Below are positions 7,015-58,260 of a stretch of DNA of 64,000 nt, piece after piece. Where the stretch lies: assembly GCA_034620365.1 (NCBI GenBank), contig JAQGEQ010000326.1:372001-436000 (forward strand), in the 5' to 3' direction. The notes under the pieces are model-generated. The model was not told the origin of the DNA and searched no databases. It worked only from the letters and a program-made list of their open reading frames with translations. Each line of letters opens with the position of its first letter. Within the stretch, counting starts at the first letter, position 1. Source of the stretch: Pegea sp. RAD2-039 (taxonomy: Eukaryota > Chordata > Thaliacea > Salpida > Salpidae). The position numbers were made by a program, and so were the translations under genes.

Positions 7015-7068
7015 CTGACTCATTGCCCCGAGGCTGTTGTTGTTTTGAAAGGAAGTGATGACGTCATC
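7015..7068 (-). other. 54-nt exon-like block, copy 1
   Basis: On the minus strand this block reads DDVITSFQNNNSLGAMSQ and is followed by GTTATATC. The block at 51225-51278(+) reads DDVITSSQNINSLGEMSQ, is preceded by ATTACACAG and followed by GTTTTATC. The two are clearly homologous and more GC-rich than their surroundings. They could be relics of a coding exon or a repeat core. No host gene could be joined to either. Confidence 0.35.
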
Positions 7069-8680: not shown

Positions 8681-9140
8681 ATATTATTATACTTAACTCA
8701 ATTTCATTTTTTCCCAATTATTTTATTTTACTTTTTATATAATTTTTTAAAATAACTTAACGTTTTTTAAGAACTTTGTTCAGTTAAGTTCTTTAGACAG
8801 ATTTTCTAATTTGATGTTATCAAATAATATAAATAATATATCAATTTCAGTTACATCAAAGTTTTCAAACTGATGACATCATCAGATTAGATTATGATGA
8901 TGACGTAGACTAATTCCATTAGTTTTTAAAGTAAATGCACAAATTTATAAATTATTAATGACGCCCGTGGTGTTATCACCATTTCAATTTTTTTATGAAG
9001 ATAAACTGATGACGTCATTATTAATATCATAATGTCGTAGTCAATTTTTCATCACATCGATGATGATGATGACGTCACTCAATCCTATCCGTTTATCAGT
9101 GTATCAATTGTTGGTTCAAAATTTAATTTTACTTCTTTTC
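8680..9140. repeat. Segment inverted at 57800-58260
   Basis: The block with GACGCCCGTGGTG near 8961 and the TGACGTCA site at 9010 reappear in reverse orientation at about 57860-58250. It forms the left part of the CRE-like patch. Confidence 0.7.
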
Positions 9141-9646
9141 TATCAAAGTTGATGACGTCAAACTTGTTCACAACATAATTTTTTGTTCTGTTAAATTCTT
9201 TCGCCTTCTGTAGCTTGTCTATGCTTCTTCTTAATGACGTCACTACAAGCAACCATACCACAATATAATTATAAGATCTTTCGCCTTCTGTAGCTTTCCT
9301 AAACTTTTACTTGATGACGTCACTACAGGTAACCATACTACGAGATCAAAGGACTTCATCACCATATATGACTTTCTCAGAAAACAACAATCATGTGTAG
9401 TCATGGTAAAACCGATTGTAGTGGCGTCATCAACTCTTGAACTGGCGACATCATCATTGATTTCAGACTTGTTGGAGTGCATGATGCTGATAACGTCATG
9501 ATCAGTTTTCGAGTTTGTTATTGAATCCGATAATGATGATGACGTCACAAGTGGTTTTGTGACGTCATCAAATCACAAACAACTTCATACTCAAATATTT
9601 TGACAAAATATTAAAATGAAGTCGTCATCATCATCTAGTGACGTCA
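9010..9646. promoter_or_regulatory. Cluster of eight TGACGTCA (CRE/ATF-type) palindromes
   Basis: Perfect TGACGTCA octamers start at 9010, 9070, 9153, 9235, 9315, 9540, 9560 and 9639, with near-matches around 8900, 9490 and 9730. Known biology: this octamer is the binding site of CREB/ATF bZIP factors. Such density in A+T-rich DNA is far above chance, but part is explained by an 80-bp tandem repeat. No gene lies within 5 kb, so the target, if any, is unknown. It may instead be a structural feature of a repeat. Confidence 0.5.
9153..9345. repeat. Tandem repeat of about 80 bp carrying TGACGTCA
   Basis: The block TCGCCTTCTGTAGCT occurs at 9201 and 9281, and TGACGTCACTACA at 9235 and 9315, both at an offset of 80 bp. 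A less complete unit precedes from 9153. Each unit carries one CRE octamer. Confidence 0.8.
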
Positions 9647-24040: not shown

Positions 24041-24825
24041 CTCCAGTTGATTTATGAATTCATCAAATTTAATATATTACACAAAAGTTCTGCTGAAAAA
24101 CTTTTTTCTTCTAGAATATATTTAGAATATCTAGATATTCATATAACGATATCTAGAAGAATATCTTCTAGAGTATATTCGTTTTTAATCGATCTTGTAA
24201 CTGCTGATACTGAAACTATGTTTTAACTCTAAAATCAACGAAATCATTGAATTAGTAAGAATTCGGAAGCAATTTTCATTGAAAAACTAAAAAGATAACT
24301 GTTAACTACGTATATTTTTGCAGTTGGACGAGGATATGAGAATTATATACTTTTATTATTTTGAGAGTTGGCTTCGTTTATATTAGGAGAATCCACATAG
24401 CCATAAAAGGCATTTAAAGATGAATTCTTTTAAATATTATAGAAGTAAGACAATGGGGGGAAGATTAACTACAGCGAAACAAATTGTTAGACGATTGTGT
24501 TTTGTTGATTAGCAACAAATCTGACGTATAAATAATAAAACCAAATAGTTTGTAAAGATCTTATCTAATAAAAAAGTTTAAAATAAACTAACTGCTAAAC
24601 AACCAGCAAAATATGGTTCATCTGATTTTTTTCCAAATTTAAAAAAGATTAAAAAGTCGCTTAATTTTTTATCAACCTATAATTGTAAGTTTGATGTAAA
24701 CATTTGGGTAATAAATGACTCAGTACTGTAGCAGATGAGAGTAATTATGATGATTGAATTGTTGATAAAATGTATTATTAAGATGCATTTATTTTTAATA
24801 TGAAATGATAAAAAGAATTCATTAA
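24041..24825 (-). repeat. Inverted copy of 7000-7830 material
   Basis: Positions 24041-24500 mirror about 7430-7830. Positions 24500-24790 mirror the interspersed repeat at 7095-7360. The junction with the finger array is at about 24041. A 63-codon open frame at 24035-24226 is part of this copy and has no recognisable content. Confidence 0.75.
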
Positions 24826-24829
24826 ATTG

Positions 24830-25740
24830 AAAAATAGATAGTTTAAGATCGAAACTTTAGTTTCTTGCCACTACACTCAAAAGTAGTTACTAATCTCTAT
24901 ATTAATCTGCTAATGAAATTCTACTAAGAGATAATATTAACAACAAAAAATCTTAGATATCATAATAAAAATACTATAATATGATTAATAATTATATATT
25001 AATATTATATTTAGTAATACTATAATTACTAATCTTTAAATTGTGATCCATTAGTAAGAAACATCTATTTATACATTAGTTTCATTTAAATTATAAGCCT
25101 CGTTATAAATTACTAATATAGTTAATTAGGTTATGAATACCTAAGACATTCTCTTTTAAAATAATTTGTATTTAAACATATAAAAGAAGTGTACACAAAT
25201 CATAAAGAAATAATATAAAATATTTCTTTTATCACAAAGTTAAATGGTTTTAAAAAACCTTATTAAGAGCTTTCTAAAAAAATTATCGACCTCAGGCAAA
25301 AATTGAACTGTAATAATATCGTTTTTTTGGAAGTTTTTTCTCTTTTCAAACTAAATCGGGATTAAACTTTTTAAGATAGAGTTTTCAGCTTAATTTTATA
25401 TATTTTTTACATTTTTTTGAAAAAATAAGTTTAAATAATTAAAATTTAAAAGAAACTTCTAGAAAATTAATACTTTTATGTTGCTTTAAAAGAAACAAAA
25501 AAGGAATGCAAGCTGCATTAACAAATTCTCTTAATAAGTTTAGATTTGTAGTTACTCGATATTGCTGAAAAATTTTAATGCACAACAAATATTAATAGCA
25601 AAACAGTAAAATCATCAAAATAATAATCGACAAGTTACAAAATCCAAACTGCAGAAGCTTCTAGAACTTTGATTCTGTCATCATAATTTGCGTGCAAACA
25701 TTTTTATGTTTCTAACATTGCTTTCAAAATTATGTGCAAT
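24830..25740 (+). repeat. Subfamily 1 5' flank copy without a gene
   Basis: Inverse of about 4080-4930 and parallel to 51340-51780 and 61150-61400. The match stops at about 25740, where 21200-type sequence begins, giving a sharp rearrangement junction. Confidence 0.75.
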
Positions 25741-25744
25741 AAAA

Positions 25745-26510
25745 ATGTAGATTTTATATAAAAAACCATATGAAAAGATTGGTTGATATTCTAAAATTAT
25801 TATATATAATATGCTATATGAAATAAAATCATTTCTAAAAGTACTAGTCCATAACTTACCCGATTGGTCTTTTGAAATTAACATCCTTAGAATTAACATA
25901 TTGAGTTGCTAAGACAGTTTGAATTGCTTTCCTTATTTTGTAACTTTATACGTAAAAAAGGAGAACTAATAAATGCTAATTTGTTACCAGTCCATTTTAA
26001 TCTAATCGATGAAATTGCTTTAAATTGCTAGAATGTTTTTGAACCATTTTGTTTCATTACTTATACGTCAGATTTGTTTGTATTTTAGTTCCTATTTCTT
26101 CACACATATATTTCTTCACAAATTAAAACAGGATTTGTACATTATATTGTCAGATTTTTTTTTCTGTTGATCCTTTTGAGCGCCTGTGACTTTTGATGGT
26201 TTTTCATCTTTAAATCTCGAACAACGGAATAAGTTGCTAAATGAGATAGAATGTTTTTCCTTTTTTATATTCTTTGTTATATTGTAGTTTTCTTAATTTA
26301 ATTCCAATACATCAGACGTACTGAGAAATGTTGATTTGTTACATTGATGGTTTTATGAATGATTTTAAAGTAATAATTAATAATTGATAAATCTTCAAAA
26401 AAAGAATTACAAAAATCAACGGTACAAAAAGTGCGATGTGTATCTCAAAAAACTATAAAATAATAAAACTTAAAAGAGTATTTCAAGTTTGAGGCAAATA
26501 TAAATGACTA
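25745..26510 (+). repeat. Direct copy of 21200-21960
   Basis: Shared blocks include CCATAACTTACC-GATTGGTC, TTACCAGTCCATTTTAATC and TGTGCGATGTGTATCTC-like sequence. An inverted copy lies at 54470-55240. Confidence 0.75.
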
Positions 26511-26858
26511 CTTAAAAACTCAATAAATCATTGGAAAAATCACCAGAAATTAGAAGTAGTTTAAAAGCAATTGATCTTTACAGTAGTTGTTTTTAAGCCC
26601 ACCTCTAACAATCCTATTTAATTAGCAAAAATAATAAATTATCCAATTTAGATATCTTTTATAAAATATTACCCTAAATATACTTGTAAATGAAACTTCT
26701 TGTAATTGTTATAATAAATATTCATATCTCAATCTATTTCATTTAATGACTTTAATTTGTAAATAAGAATAACAGAAAATTGTTTCAAATGCATTAAAAA
26801 GAAGTTAAGTAATAAATCCACAATTTTCGTTTGATGAGGAGGGCTCTGCTGGTATTGA
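26511..26858. other. Intergenic DNA 3' of the PAH gene
   Basis: Low-GC sequence up to about 26820. From about 26820 the composition changes to a more GC-balanced one, continuous with the PAH gene. No duplicated partner was recognised. Confidence 0.4.
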
Positions 26859-27510
26859 CTACTTCCTGCGCGATTGTTTCTTGTTGGTGCTTCTCCCATT
26901 TTTTCTCTTTTTTGCTCGCTTTTTTTCGTCTGCTGCCATCTGGTGGTTTGTGTTACAATTAATGACATTATCAAATAGAGTAAGCCTGATGTTACTGACC
27001 ACTGATATTTGCGTACTAGCTACAGAGGAGTTAGAAGAAAGTGCACAACTTTCGTCAGTGAGAACAGGAGCAAAAAATCTTAATTCACGCAAGAGGTCAT
27101 CATTTCCTTTTAAAAGTTGGGACAGCTGTCCGCCAATTAGTGTTTAGCAAGTTATCTTACTTTTTGATTAACTGTTGCTCACCTGACTGTATACTTCAGA
27201 TTCGGACAAAATCGGGGTAAAAGTATATTTCGAGATTTTGAGATCATCCTGTTCTTTCATATATTTGTTCAAAATTGCCAAAAACGAGTGAAAGATATCC
27301 GGTTGTGATTTAAAACGATTCTAAGCGACCAAAAATTGTAATACCAAGCTATAAGGTTCATCAGAATCTTACTTTGATCTTGTTAACGAACTTGATAGCA
27401 TACTCATATGTTATGGGATCATTTTGGTCATTCGATACAGAAACAGAATCTGTAAATTCACAGTTAGTCGCAAGGATCAATTTTTCATCAGGTGTGTGTC
27501 GATTGTCCAT
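26859..27510 (-). CDS. Single-PAH-domain protein related to Sin3 PAH2 (three exons)
   Basis: Exons 27510-27373, 27320-27183 and 27125-26859 join to 180 codons. Introns of 52 nt (GTAAGA...TTAG) and 57 nt (GTGAGC...ACAG) both fall in phase 0. ATG context is AAAATGG. Residues about 34-115 match the paired amphipathic helix domain 2 of Sin3 in order. They contain a helix with AIKFVNKIK, then NRFKSQPDIF and FLAILNKYMKEQ, a TFTPILSESEVYSQ turn, and LLKGNDDLLRELRFFAP. The intron positions fall exactly at KIK/NRF and VYSQ/LSQ, which makes the model compelling. The C-terminus is Ser-rich and then strongly basic (DEKKRAKKRKNGR), probably a nuclear signal. Sin3 itself is far longer, with several PAHs and an HDAC-interaction domain, none of which is seen here. 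Known role of PAH2: binding short helical repression motifs of DNA-binding factors. Inferred role: a decoy or adaptor for Sin3-binding repressors. Codon use is less A+T-rich than that of its neighbours. Confidence 0.82.
27126..27182 (-). other. Intron 2 of the PAH gene (57 nt)
   Basis: Donor GTGAGC follows codon CAG at 27183-27185, and acceptor ACAG ends at 27126. It contains in-frame stops, so it must be removed for the domain to be completed. Confidence 0.8.
27321..27372 (-). other. Intron 1 of the PAH gene (52 nt)
   Basis: Donor GTAAGA follows codon AAA at 27373-27375, and acceptor TTAG ends at 27321. Removing it joins KIK to NRF exactly as in Sin3 PAH2 domains. Confidence 0.8.
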
Positions 27511-28430
27511 TTTTGTTAAACTTCAGCAGATTAAAAAATATGCAAAATTTTCTGTCTGAAAGCAGCATAAGTATAATTTACTTTTCAAAAATTAGAGTTT
27601 TCGAGCTTACAGATTAAAAAACAACTAACCTAAGTAGAAATTACAGATTCAAATGCTTAATTCTAGAATAAAATATATTGCAAAAAGATGTTGACTAAAA
27701 CAGTATAAAATATTAATTAAGACTCAATGGAAGGATTAAATTTAAAATGAAAATATTGCTATTATTCCAGCTTTTTCAGTTTTAAAATAATAATAATAAT
27801 TTAGACTTTTTAAAAACACTAAATGCATAGAAGTATTCATGATGTATATATGCTAGTAGTCTATTTGCATCATCCAAAATAAGATTTATTATGAAATACA
27901 GAAAAACATTGAAAATGATACTTCAACAAAAATTATAGAAAGTTTTCGATTTTAAATCAGTTTAAATAACTAATGTATCTAAGAAAATACGAAAAGAATA
28001 AAAGAATTAAACATTGCTTTTTGCAGAAAAAGCTAGTAAGTAAACTGTTAATTTGGATTTGAGTTTTAGACATTTACCTTTGAGAAATAAATATAGTTAA
28101 CATTTTTAGTAAAAAATAAATTATTTTGAAGCTTTTGTTGATCAATCTGAAATATTTACTTATTTTCATAACATTTTCTATATTCAAAAAAAATATGATT
28201 ACTATCTAAAAATAGATATACTGAAGCTATAACTAACACTTAAGGAGAGAAACGATAAAAAAGTCAATAACACGAGATACAGTGAAGACTAAACAAAACA
28301 TTATTTAGTGATCAAAAGAATGAACAAAATAGGATCATTACAGAACCGAATTATAGCATAAAAATAACAATCCTAGATGTAGAAGATTAAAAAAGAATGA
28401 AACATCGCCCTTCTAACTATATATGTTACA
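27511..28430. other. Upstream region of the PAH gene, no further exon recognised
   Basis: Unique A+T-rich sequence without recognised partners elsewhere in the window. A promoter or 5' UTR exon of the PAH gene would be expected here, but no motif is convincing. Confidence 0.4.
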
Positions 28431-29330
28431 AAAATTTTTATCTAGTAATAAAAAACTCTCACATAGATGATAATACATATTTAAGTTTCATGGAAATGTA
28501 CAAGGAATTTATAACTTACAAACCAAGATAATCTAACAAAAATTAACTTAAAGTCTAATACTCTGACAGTGTTAAGCATTCACTTCAAATTTTTAATTTC
28601 AAATGTTTGAAAAGTTGATGTCTAAACTCTATACCTGCAATAACTTCACAAAAATCAATACTAGCAAATGTCTTATAAAATTAAGCAAGCTACATAAGTT
28701 TACAAAAAATCGAAAATCTTTCATGATCATCTAACAATGATCATTTTTTCGTTATTGGCATTAAGTTTACAAGTAACTAAAAGAGGCAAAAAAGAGCAAC
28801 AAAACCTAATAATTTAATATAATTATAATAATATATATAACACAAATGACGTTACCAAACATTTAAACTGTTGGTCAAAGTCTTCTTAAGAATATATATA
28901 TATGTTTGATTTATAAAAAAGTATTATTAATCTTCAAAACAGTTTGGAGAAATTATAATTCTGAAAGTAATGTTAGAAACAAAACAATCTTTGCAAGCAA
29001 ATTTTGATTAGAATATCAAAGTTATATAAGCTTTTGCTATTTTGATTTTGTTGGTTGCTGATTAACATTTGGATACTTTTGCTGTTTAATATTATAAAGC
29101 GACTTTTTGGTACATTACATTTCTATATTATTAAAAAGTAACTGCAAAATCCAAACTTTGTAAGAGTATTTGTTCATTCAGTTTTTATTATTTTTTATTT
29201 TTTAAAGTTACAAATAAACAATAAATTTCAAGAAATACTTATAGATATTAATCATTTAAAGTTTTTGTTTTTAAAAAACCTCTAAAAAACTATTCTAAAA
29301 TCTATTATTATTTTTGGATGAGTCTGTGGG
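28430..29330 (-). repeat. Subfamily 2 5' flank copy without a gene
   Basis: Parallel to 34180-35050 and 42400-43260 (blocks AAATTAAGCAAGCTACATAAG and AATGACGTTACC). The coding end of the flank is missing. At about 29470 it switches to type 3 3' flank sequence. Confidence 0.75.
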
Positions 29331-29479
29331 TATGTTTGGCTGAATACAGTAATTAAGTACTAGAAAAACGTTTTTTCACAAAAATGAATATTAAAGCGAT
29401 ATAACAAATATGTACCATCTACAAAAAAATGATTATGTAAAGTGTTAAGGTAGAATTTCAAGAAGAACAGTAAAAGGTT

Positions 29480-30526
29480 TGCTTTGATAATTAGAGTTCC
29501 ATTTAAATTAGCAACTTAATGGTTGGTTCGATAATTAGAATTACCAAGAGCTGAAATGGATCTACAGTTATATATCTAGCGTAGAAGTAGTAAACCCAAT
29601 AGTTTAAAACACTCTAGCAACTTGCTTACAAGAATATTAATCGTAAAGTTTAAAAATGATGGAGTAGTAACCGATAAGAAAATATTAGTTTTTCTGCCGT
29701 TCCTCCGAGGTTACAAAATTATAAAGTAATTTAAACTATTTAAAAAACTCAATCTGTTAATTTTGATCTAACTATTTGGGTAAGAAACAATCAAGTGCTA
29801 TAGAAGATGATTTATTTATGATGATGTAATTGTCGATAATATGAAATGTTAAAAAACTTCTTTTTCTAAATTTATAGTATGAAGAGGATAACAACATTTA
29901 TTGTTTTTATCTCCAACAAGCATTTTAAGAAAGGAAATAGATTTTAAGATTTCAAAAATTAGTTTTCTCGTAAAAATTGCAATAATTACTAAAAACTGTA
30001 GTTTTACTTTCATAATAAAAACAAAACACAAAAATAATCAGTTATGTAAACATATAAGGATTTAACGAATCTTTTGATGGTAACTAAAAAGTAACCGTGA
30101 TTTCAATTGCCTTTGTCAACTATAAAAATTTAATTACTTTCAAAAACTTGTTGAAATATAATAGAAGATGTTATCAAATACATAAAATACAAACTTTGAA
30201 AATTAAGGAATACAAGCAAATTTTTTAATAGTTTATAAAAACGATTTACGAAAATAACAACATAAGAATACTAACTTTAGTTTAAAGTAAAAAATTAAAT
30301 GAATAACCTTTATGATTTATTGCAGATTTACACACTATTTCAATAATAGAGCAATCATTAAAATAGTTAATTAAAGCATAAATTGCAACAACCTGCCAAA
30401 CAAAAAATCATTATTTGGTTTCCTTTAAACTCCAAGATCTTTATATAGTTAAGTTACTCATCAGTTTAAACACATTTTCATTTATCCATACTTGAATTGT
30501 GAGTAAACGTTTACTGCAAGATGATT
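29480..30526 (-). repeat. Type 3 3' flank copy
   Basis: Downstream DNA of the 30.5-33.4 kb gene, paralogous to 22190-23310(-) and 53073-54100(+). Confidence 0.8.
29849..30013 (-). CDS. Conserved small ORF in type 3 3' flank, copy 2
   Basis: 54 codons from ATG, begins MKVKLQFLVIIAIF. Homologous to 22635-22799 and 53592-53756. See the first copy for interpretation. Confidence 0.25.
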   Translation of the reverse strand: MKVKLQFLVIIAIFTRKLIFEILKSISFLKMLVGDKNNKCCYPLHTINLEKEVF

Positions 30527-30890
30527 TTACTTTTTATGATTAAAATGAGTTCTTTTGTGGTATGACAGACTGGAATTTTGACTAAATTTTCTTCCACAAA
30601 CCAGACATTCATATGGTTTCTCACCAGTATGAGTTCTTTCATGACATAACAAAGTAGTTTTTCGACTAAAATTTCTTTCACAAACAATACATTCATATGG
30701 CTTCCCACCAGTATGAGTTCTTTCATGGCATAACAAATGGGTTTTTTGACTAAACTTTCTTTCTCAAACAATACATTCATATGGCTTCTCGCCAGTATGA
30801 GTTCTTTCATGGCATAAGAAATGGGTTTTTTGACTAAACTTTCTTTCTCAAACAATACATTCATATGGCTTCTCGCCAGTATGAGTTCTT

Positions 30891-31678
30891 TCATGGCGTA
30901 ACAAATTGTTTTTTTGACTAAACTTTCTTTCACAAACTGTACATTCAAATGGCTTCTCACCAGTATGAGTTTTTTCATGGCATAAGAAATGGGTTTTTTG
31001 ACTAAACTTTCTTTCACAAACAATACATTCATATGGCTTCCCACCAGTATGAGTTCTTTCATGGCATAAGAAATGGGTTTTTTGACTAAACTTTCTTTCT
31101 CAAACAATACATTCATATGGCTTCTCGCCAGTATGAGTTTTTTCATGGCGTAACAAATTGTTTTTTTGACTAAACTTTCTTTCACAAACTGTACATTCAA
31201 ATGGCTTTTCACCAGTATGAGTTCTTTCATGACATAACAAATGGGTTTTTCGACTAAATTTTCTTTCACAAACTGTACATTCAAATGGCTTCCCACCAGT
31301 ATGAGTTCTTTCATGGCATAAGAAATGGGTTTTTTGACTAAACTTTCTTTCTCAAACAATACATTCATATGGCTTCTCGCCAGTATGAGTTCTTTCATGG
31401 CATAAGAAATGGGTTTTTTGACTAAACTTTCTTTCTCAAACAATACATTCATATGGCTTCTCGCCAGTATGAGTTTTTTCATGGCGTAACAAATTGTTTT
31501 TTTGACTAAACTTTCTTTCACAAACTGTACATTCAAATGGCTTCTCACCAGTATGAGTTTTTTCATGGCATAAGAAATGGGTTTTTTGACTAAACTTTCT
31601 TTCACAAACAATACATTCATATGGCTTCCCACCAGTATGAGTTCTTTCATGGCATAAGAAATGGGTTTTTTGACTAAA
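30891..31678 (-). repeat. Copy 1 of an identical segment of about 790 bp
   Basis: Read side by side, positions about 30891-31678 and 32151-32938 are identical, at an offset of 1260 bp (15 units of 84 bp). Confidence 0.85.
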
Positions 31679-31858
31679 TGTTCTTTCACAAACAATACAT
31701 TCATATGGCTTCTCGCCAGTATGAGTTTTTTCATGGCGTAACAAATTGTTTTTTTGACTAAACTTTCTTTCACAAACTGTACATTCAAATGGCTTCTCAC
31801 CAGTATGAGTTTTTTCATGGCATAAGAAATGGGTTTTTTGACTAAACTTTCTTTCTCA

Positions 31859-32023
<165 letters not shown>

Positions 32024-32150
32024 TCAAACAATACATTCATATGGCTTCTCGCCAGTATGAGTTCTTTCATGGCATAAGAAATGGGTTTTTTGACTAAATG
32101 TTCTTTCACAAACAATACATTCATTTGGCTTCTCGCCAGTATGAGTTTTT

Positions 32151-32938
32151 TCATGGCGTAACAAATTGTTTTTTTGACTAAACTTTCTTTCACAAACTGT
32201 ACATTCAAATGGCTTCTCACCAGTATGAGTTTTTTCATGGCATAAGAAATGGGTTTTTTGACTAAACTTTCTTTCACAAACAATACATTCATATGGCTTC
32301 CCACCAGTATGAGTTCTTTCATGGCATAAGAAATGGGTTTTTTGACTAAACTTTCTTTCTCAAACAATACATTCATATGGCTTCTCGCCAGTATGAGTTT
32401 TTTCATGGCGTAACAAATTGTTTTTTTGACTAAACTTTCTTTCACAAACTGTACATTCAAATGGCTTTTCACCAGTATGAGTTCTTTCATGACATAACAA
32501 ATGGGTTTTTCGACTAAATTTTCTTTCACAAACTGTACATTCAAATGGCTTCCCACCAGTATGAGTTCTTTCATGGCATAAGAAATGGGTTTTTTGACTA
32601 AACTTTCTTTCTCAAACAATACATTCATATGGCTTCTCGCCAGTATGAGTTCTTTCATGGCATAAGAAATGGGTTTTTTGACTAAACTTTCTTTCTCAAA
32701 CAATACATTCATATGGCTTCTCGCCAGTATGAGTTTTTTCATGGCGTAACAAATTGTTTTTTTGACTAAACTTTCTTTCACAAACTGTACATTCAAATGG
32801 CTTCTCACCAGTATGAGTTTTTTCATGGCATAAGAAATGGGTTTTTTGACTAAACTTTCTTTCACAAACAATACATTCATATGGCTTCCCACCAGTATGA
32901 GTTCTTTCATGGCATAAGAAATGGGTTTTTTGACTAAA
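32151..32938 (-). repeat. Copy 2 of an identical segment of about 790 bp
   Basis: Partner of 30891-31678. It implies very recent duplication or gene conversion. Confidence 0.85.
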
Positions 32939-33419
32939 CTTTCTTTCTCAAACAATACATTCATATGGCTTCTTGCCAGTATGAGTTCTTTCATGACATA
33001 ACAAAGTGTTTTCGACTAAACTTTCTTTCACAAACTATACATTCATATGGCTTCTCACCAGTATGAGTTCTTTCATGATAAACAAGCTGAGATTTGAATT
33101 TAAATTTCTTGTTACAGTCTAAGCATTCATATTTGATTTTGAAATTAGATGATTGTTTGTTTTCTTCATTATTTTCTTTCCCTTTGAATGCTGTTGTATC
33201 GCTGTTAGTCTCTTTATAAGGGAAACTTGTATTTGTTGGAATTTCTTTAGTATTATTTAAACTAGTTTGATCAGCATGACGTTTATACAAGCTATATACT
33301 CCACCAGAAGTGTTTACCAAAATTTTCTTTTCTGCAATTTCATTATTAAAAGTTTTCTCATCATCATCTGATGACAGTTTTCTTTTTCGTGCAAATTTGC
33401 TTCTTTGTATAAAGTTCAT

Positions 33420-57800: not shown

Positions 57801-58260
57801 TGATAGAAAAGAAGTAAAATTAAATTTTGAACAAACAACTGATACATTGATAAACGGGTAGGATTGAGTGACGTCATCATCATCAATGTGATGAAAAATT
57901 TGATTACGATATTATGATATTAATAATGACGTCATCAGTTTATCTTCATAAAACAATTGAAATGGTGATAGCACCACGGGCGTCATTAATAATTTATAAA
58001 TTTATGCATTTACTTTAAAAACTAATCGAATTAGTCTATGTCATCATCATAATCTAATATGATGACGTCATCCGTTTGAACACTTTGTTGTGAGTGAAAC
58101 GATAAATTGATTTCAAATTAGAAAATCTGTTTAAAGAACTTACTGAACAAAGTTCATTCAAAATATTACATAAAAAGTAAAATAAAATAATTGGGAAAAA
58201 ATGAAATTGAGTCAAGTATAATAATATTCTTCGTAAGAAAAATTCATTCTCTTAAAATTG
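57800..58260 (-). repeat. Inverse of 8680-9140, with three TGACGTCA sites
   Basis: Perfect octamers start at 57869, 57927 and 58063. The GGGCGTCATTAATAATTTAT block near 57978 mirrors 8944-8970. Confidence 0.75.

Follow-up and report, generated by a model that had tools for sequence, protein, structure and literature searches.

A multi-copy partial duplicate of Sin3 with an intact PAH2 domain in a zinc-finger gene cluster of Pegea

The 64,000-nucleotide stretch of Pegea sp. RAD2-039 DNA analysed here (contig JAQGEQ010000326.1, positions 372,001 to 436,000; hereafter the window) carries a real, multi-copy partial duplicate of Sin3 with an intact PAH2 domain, which we call mini-Sin3. From the sequence evidence, its origin is firm, the end of the gene is revised relative to an earlier note on this DNA, its use as a gene appears plausible, and a decoy role makes a fair hypothesis. 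The best explanation we can offer, a tentative one whose chance falls a little short of even, is that the window gene is one of four mini-Sin3 copies and that its nuclear, PAH2-only product would compete with Sin3. Sin3 serves as a hub in gene silencing. If this explanation is true, an amplified PAH2-only family would be a natural tool of dominant interference, and a clear example of a corepressor as the source of its own competitor. Silent or not, the copies show a duplicating zinc-finger cluster picking up and multiplying a piece of an unrelated regulator, introns and upstream sequence included.

Descent from Sin3 and structure of the gene

The three minus-strand exons and two phase-0 GT-AG introns described in the earlier note hold up on our reading of the sequence (Table 1), and both introns match introns of Sin3. 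The PAH2-like domain claimed there is also recovered: against Pfam PAH (PF02671; gathering cut-off 21.3 bits), a check that the note had proposed, the spliced 180-aa reading scores 34.1 bits (2.2e-8) and the 160-aa reading preferred below scores 34.5. Among solved structures, Sin3A and Sin3B PAH2 entries are the top matches (E 2.6e-22 to the Sin3A PAH2 of PDB 2l9s, over query residues 26-112), and entry 2rmr, which we take to be the Sin3A PAH1, reaches 0.00031. The domain shares with the Sin3A and Sin3B PAH2 (PF02671; PDB 2l9s, 1g1e, 1e91) its fold family and a length of about 80 residues, and is identical at 39 of 78 residues to the Sin3A domain and at 46 of 78 to that of the genome's own Sin3.

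The genome searched comprises 105.7 Mb in 387 contigs, labelled here with C-numbers, the window lying on C255. It holds one long Sin3, on C15 at about 455-460 kb. In exon-by-exon searches of the genome, PAH, Sin3_corepress and Sin3a_C pass the Pfam cut-offs on C15 and nowhere else; such searches give lower bounds, and the PAH search missed the window copy, whose PAH an intron interrupts. The sole match in the genome to Sin3_corepress (PF08295, the HDAC interaction domain) lies at C15:456616-456855, and genome searches found neither Sin3a_C (PF16879) nor, with the Sin3 PAH1 as query, PAH1 outside C15. Sin3_corepress was also absent from a Pfam scan of the 180- and 160-aa readings, in agreement with the earlier claim that the gene lacks HDAC-binding parts. 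The note had named as grounds for refutation that these exons might be the middle of an intact long Sin3 gene. This is ruled out: Sin3_corepress and Sin3a_C match only on C15, and the long Sin3 lies there, away from the window.

The first ten exons of Sin3 were modelled from sequence, and the Sin3 intron sites given here rest on that model. A blastn comparison of mini-Sin3 with Sin3 returned two blocks, one covering the start exon (80/115 nt) and one beginning at the PAH2 exon and taking in the introns and exons after it (335/459 nt). A short match lies further upstream, where 27687-27651 shares 31 of 37 nt with the DNA found 128-164 nt before the Sin3 start codon. In its make-up, mini-Sin3 is a Sin3 start exon fused to PAH2 exons, with PAH1 and everything downstream of the copied part missing; its exon 1 ends in 12 codons homologous to the beginning of Sin3 PAH2 (exon 7). 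The Sin3 derivation of the start of exon 1 had been missed before. Since two introns sit at Sin3 sites with Sin3 lengths (52 and 57 nt), mini-Sin3 was copied as DNA, and a retrocopy is ruled out. What the two genes have in common is the start exon, the two introns, the PAH2 exons and a portion of the exon after them; they differ in that Sin3 has two Pfam PAH stretches in its modelled part, together with Sin3_corepress and Sin3a_C, whereas mini-Sin3 has one PAH. Mini-Sin3 is almost certainly a partial Sin3 duplication. A fragment of a duplicated Sin3 gene had been the note's fallback reading, and the homology of start exon, introns and PAH2 exons bears it out.

Table 1. Features of the window gene and blocks shared with its sister copies (window coordinates; intron 3 and exon 4 belong to the preferred four-exon reading)
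Feature	Position	Strand	Description
Whole gene	27510-26859	-	ATG at the 27510 end
Upstream part of core unit, presumed promoter and leader	27511-28140	-	14 segregating sites in 630 nt across four copies
Exon 1	27373-27510	-	138 nt, 46 codons; 5′ portion homologous to Sin3 exon 1
Intron 1	27321-27372	-	52 nt, GT-AG, phase 0; site and length as in Sin3; 36/52 nt identical to Sin3 intron
Exon 2	27183-27320	-	138 nt, 46 codons, PAH2 middle; 100/138 nt identical to Sin3; zero segregating sites across four copies
Intron 2	27126-27182	-	57 nt, GT-AG, phase 0; site and length as in Sin3; 41/57 nt identical to Sin3 intron
Exon 3	27000-27125	-	42 codons, PAH2 end and linker; 87/126 nt identical to Sin3
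Intron 3 (proposed)	26940-26999	-	60 nt in window copy, 62 nt in other three; GTCAGTAA...ACCACCAG
Exon 4	26859-26939	-	26-residue basic tail (MAADEKKRAKKRKNGRSTNKKQSRRK) and stop; one frame common to all four copies once intron 3 is removed
Two ATTAAA words, possible poly(A) signals	26742-26756	-	~100-115 nt past stop
Largest block shared with C60 copy	24045-29473		5.5 kb, 96.0%
Block shared with C89 copy	24381-28836		4.5 kb, 96.4%
Blocks shared with second C255 copy	26496-28141		1.65 kb, 98.1%
	28336-29476		1.15 kb, 93.8%

The end of the gene is where our reading departs from the earlier one, which had two introns and 180 codons ending in a basic tail. Part of the 180-codon reading corresponds to an intron of the Sin3 model (52 nt long, in phase 0, with GTCAGT at its start), and a 2-nt deletion at about 26948, within the proposed intron 3, is found in the window copy only. 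With the third intron left in, the other three copies reach a stop at VINCNT. GTCAGT is kept in the copies, and with splicing to a downstream AG a phase-0 intron of 62 nt (60 in the window) drops out and the basic tail of 26 residues is brought into the product; so spliced, all four copies give 160 aa and an identical basic tail, one copy carrying an M-to-I change. The proposed acceptor differs from the Sin3 acceptor and is pyrimidine-poor, and by our reading the tail frame of exon 4 differs from the Sin3 frame. We prefer a predicted gene of four exons and 160 aa, because the 180-codon frame hangs on the window-only deletion and the intron of the Sin3 model starts at the same place. For the same two reasons the exact two-intron, 180-codon gene, which would be peculiar to the window copy, is improbable, although its frame is open there. 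The basic tail of the earlier note stands, being present in four copies and rich in Lys/Arg in all of them (with no Pfam match), whereas the total of 180 codons is doubtful, as are the 19 residues that precede the tail. The two ATTAAA words past the stop may be poly(A) signals, ATTAAA being a variant of that signal.

Copies in a zinc-finger cluster and scattered pieces of Sin3

A protein search of the genome recovered mini-Sin3 at C255:399k (the window), C255:236k, C60:439k and C89:83k, plus Sin3 itself and a weak match on C198. The earlier note had suggested looking for a full-length Sin3 and for other single-PAH copies; there is one Sin3, on C15, but the window gene is not single, having three near-identical sisters (98-99% identical to it over a 1641-nt core). 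The blocks shared between the window and each sister differ in extent, from which we take the four copies to occupy separate places and not to be alleles. Four alleles of one locus are likewise not supported by the 10-kb loci, whose homology ends at differing places, or by the second C255 copy, which lies on the same contig as the first.

All four copies, on C255, C60 and C89, lie between C2H2 zinc-finger genes of one family. A search for this family, in which 150 of 1258 candidates were scored and counts are therefore minima, gave at least 167 matches; among the matches listed, they fall on C255, C254, C60 and C89, with one each on C93 and C95. Many zinc-finger genes on C254 are among the matches listed, and protein and core DNA searches gave no mini-Sin3 match there. 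The four copies seem to have multiplied together with the cluster DNA, which would explain the location of mini-Sin3 without a partnership.

Such a partnership had been proposed in the earlier note, with mini-Sin3 as a specific partner or antagonist of the cluster's zinc-finger proteins. The idea draws on the shared location of all four copies and finds no support beyond it. None of eight zinc-finger ORFs in the window matches, in its leader, any of three coarse patterns for the SID, the short amphipathic helix through which repressors would contact PAH2. The one zinc-finger protein scanned with Pfam has a leader free of effector domains save for weak, low-complexity-like hits, and C254 is rich in zinc-finger genes yet has no mini-Sin3. 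We regard this relationship as very unlikely.

The zinc-finger family (on C255, C254, C60 and C89) numbers at least 100 genes, in which a conserved leader (RKRKLS...) precedes the fingers, and falls into at least two sub-types, about 80% versus about 50% identical to the query. At 30511-33015 of the window, minus strand, an 834-codon open frame lies on the same strand as the zinc-finger array and is apparently the array in another frame; it may be a zinc-finger gene whose frame has been lost, or the repeat may have given rise to a long open frame that overlaps the array.

Pieces of Sin3, some of them decayed, are also scattered elsewhere in the genome, as a C198 copy and 15 start-exon relics indicate. 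On C198 (L022:4075-4900) lies a second, separate partial Sin3 copy in which the start exon, the PAH2 introns and the next exon are recognisable. Its frame is broken, with a PAH2 reading that jumps frames within one exon-equivalent and comes to a stop, and its third intron is better preserved than the PAH2 coding part. Fifteen of 20 DNA matches to the core are relics, 71-73% identical, of the upstream part and start exon only (window 27425-27683); they are spread over six contigs (C275, C286, C267, C261, C273 and C274), and the five that were aligned (L028-L032) all lack the ATG.

These decayed pieces on other contigs are consistent with the main rival to our explanation, as is the mosaic of cluster DNA that the copies share, whose blocks end at different points. 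According to this rival, mini-Sin3 is a functionless partial Sin3 duplicate multiplied as a passenger of often-duplicating zinc-finger cluster DNA, its frames intact because the copies are young relative to one another and their ancestor was spared by chance. The evidence on selection, given in the next section, bears on it from both sides.

The relics lie within a longer repeat holding words of the palindrome TGACGTCA. This palindrome is overrepresented at the C15 Sin3 locus (L003; 10 in 9901 nt, 0.10 expected from composition), where it occurs in two of the nine introns of the modelled part of Sin3. It is likewise overrepresented in the window (12 versus 0.31 expected; sites at 7058, 9009-9638 and 57868-58062) and in each of the five 3.3-kb relic loci L028-L032 (5-7 versus about 0.02 expected). 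It occurs at L020 and at the C198 locus L022 as well, and its count is 0 in loci L019 and L021. By eye, an ORF at window 9243-9572 resembles an ORF of relic locus L028.

Constraint on the coding sequence

With the third intron removed, the frames are open in all four copies, in contrast to the C198 partial copy, a comparison case that has lost its frame, and an alignment of the copies has no gap columns in 483 coding positions and 16 in 1158 non-coding positions. Three of the four encoded proteins are at most one residue apart, and the fourth, from the second C255 copy, differs by 2. Segregating sites number 0 in the 255 PAH2-coding nt versus 29 in the other 1386 nt (p 0.016, for a comparison picked after the data were seen). 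Variable sites among the copies do not differ significantly between coding (6/483) and non-coding (23/1158) positions (p 0.41), and half of the six coding differences are replacements. Low divergence of the gene was rejected as proof of selection, as the unusually low zone (about 26250-28000) extends beyond the gene, and the flanking DNA has other repeats in the cluster.

Sin3A and the genome's own Sin3 have 27 conserved hydrophobic positions in common; mini-Sin3 stays hydrophobic at 26 of them, and just 18 are identical. We compared this with neutral simulations that started from present-day Sin3 (75% A+T, two-fold transition bias, 4000 runs per setting). Runs without a stop made up 1.3, 2.1, 4.2 and 6.8% at 65, 55, 45 and 35 substitutions on the copy's side, respectively, and runs that in addition matched mini-Sin3 in hydrophobic retention and similarity to Sin3A made up 0, 0, 0.05 and 1.1%. 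With 35 substitutions, chance does as well as mini-Sin3 in similarity to Sin3A (0.55).

Divergence from Sin3 tells in favour of a functionless duplicate. The dN/dS between mini-Sin3 and Sin3 is 0.51 in PAH2 (95% bootstrap 0.28-0.98) and 0.58 over 100 codons, and a value of about 0.5 is about as expected for a neutral copy beside a constrained Sin3. Identity to Sin3 is 72% and 69% for exons versus 69% and 72% for introns, an equal divergence. Changes are not significantly rarer at positions conserved with Sin3A (22/60) than at others (10/18; p 0.18). Against a functionless duplicate stand the simulations, which seldom keep frame and hydrophobic core together, the coding parts of the four copies, which lack indels, and the PAH2 span, which varies less than any other part of the core. 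Constraint is suggested and not proven; what these comparisons show may be a loosely constrained fold or luck. A duplicate with no function is possible without being likely; mini-Sin3 is probably still a used protein-coding gene.

The PAH2 pocket and a possible competitor of Sin3

The cleft between the first two helices of Sin3 PAH2 takes up short amphipathic helices, according to PMC8657803, which also supplied our list of 19 pocket residues (9 pocket-floor and 10 pocket-edge). On that list, the genome's own Sin3 keeps 19 of 19 and mini-Sin3 keeps 11, with identical residues at six of nine floor and five of ten edge positions. Four of the eight changes are mild (Y310F, F376L, F304Y, Y325F), and four are non-conservative (L380A, K326H, H333N, Q336M) and may weaken SID binding. 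By the same list, changes are not rarer at contact residues (8/19) than elsewhere (24/59). Beyond these eight contact residues, the domain differs from the Sin3A and Sin3B PAH2 in having no PAH1, PAH3, HID or Sin3a_C alongside.

The sequence shows that a stretch of Sin3 was copied at the DNA level, introns and some upstream DNA included. Everything between a point inside the start exon and PAH2 was lost, PAH1 with it, and the copy ends soon after PAH2; the unit now lies in the zinc-finger cluster, at four distinct places there. We propose that its product is most likely still a PAH2 of some 80 residues followed by a tail rich in lysine and arginine. This tail could take the product into the nucleus, where it would bind the SIDs of DNA-binding repressors. 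Because it combines PAH2 and a basic, probably nuclear tail with no HDAC-interaction domain, it would most simply compete with full-length Sin3 for some of its helices and so weaken repression. Provided that the gene is used, we consider such competitor or decoy action reasonably likely.

The same product could instead serve as an adaptor, its PAH2 holding a SID-bearing protein and its basic tail binding DNA, RNA or another nuclear protein. The many Lys and Arg residues in the tail of all four copies fit this role; however, the tail has no Pfam match and a frame that is not that of Sin3, and a role in nuclear localisation is enough. An adaptor is unlikely. More ambitiously, the copies could form a family of natural anti-Sin3 proteins specific to this lineage. 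Such PAH2-only genes would have arisen from Sin3 within the zinc-finger cluster and multiplied along with it; they would have been retained because they tune Sin3-dependent repression or allow escape from it, and their remodelled pocket would prefer other helices than Sin3 does. We hold this fuller version to be doubtful.

A short splice form of mammalian Sin3B reportedly lacks the HDAC-binding part and carries PAH1 and PAH2. It resembles mini-Sin3 as a PAH-bearing product without the HDAC-interaction domain and differs in being a splice form with PAH1 and PAH2, whereas mini-Sin3 is a separate amplified gene. In our literature search, which took in few subscription papers, no report turned up of a PAH2 gene standing alone within a zinc-finger cluster; such a report may nevertheless exist in print. 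A free-standing PAH outside the full Sin3 architecture has precedent in the available text of PMC7948954, a text that does not describe amplified PAH2-only copies in a zinc-finger cluster. SIN-3 of C. elegans likewise has a single PAH domain; according to PMC9217932, that PAH is closest to PAH1, and HID and SIN3A_C are kept, unlike in mini-Sin3. In PMC5687616, SID decoy peptides interfere with the PAH2-SID contact, which mini-Sin3 would likewise disturb; the peptide occupies PAH2, whereas the PAH2 of mini-Sin3 would occupy the SID.
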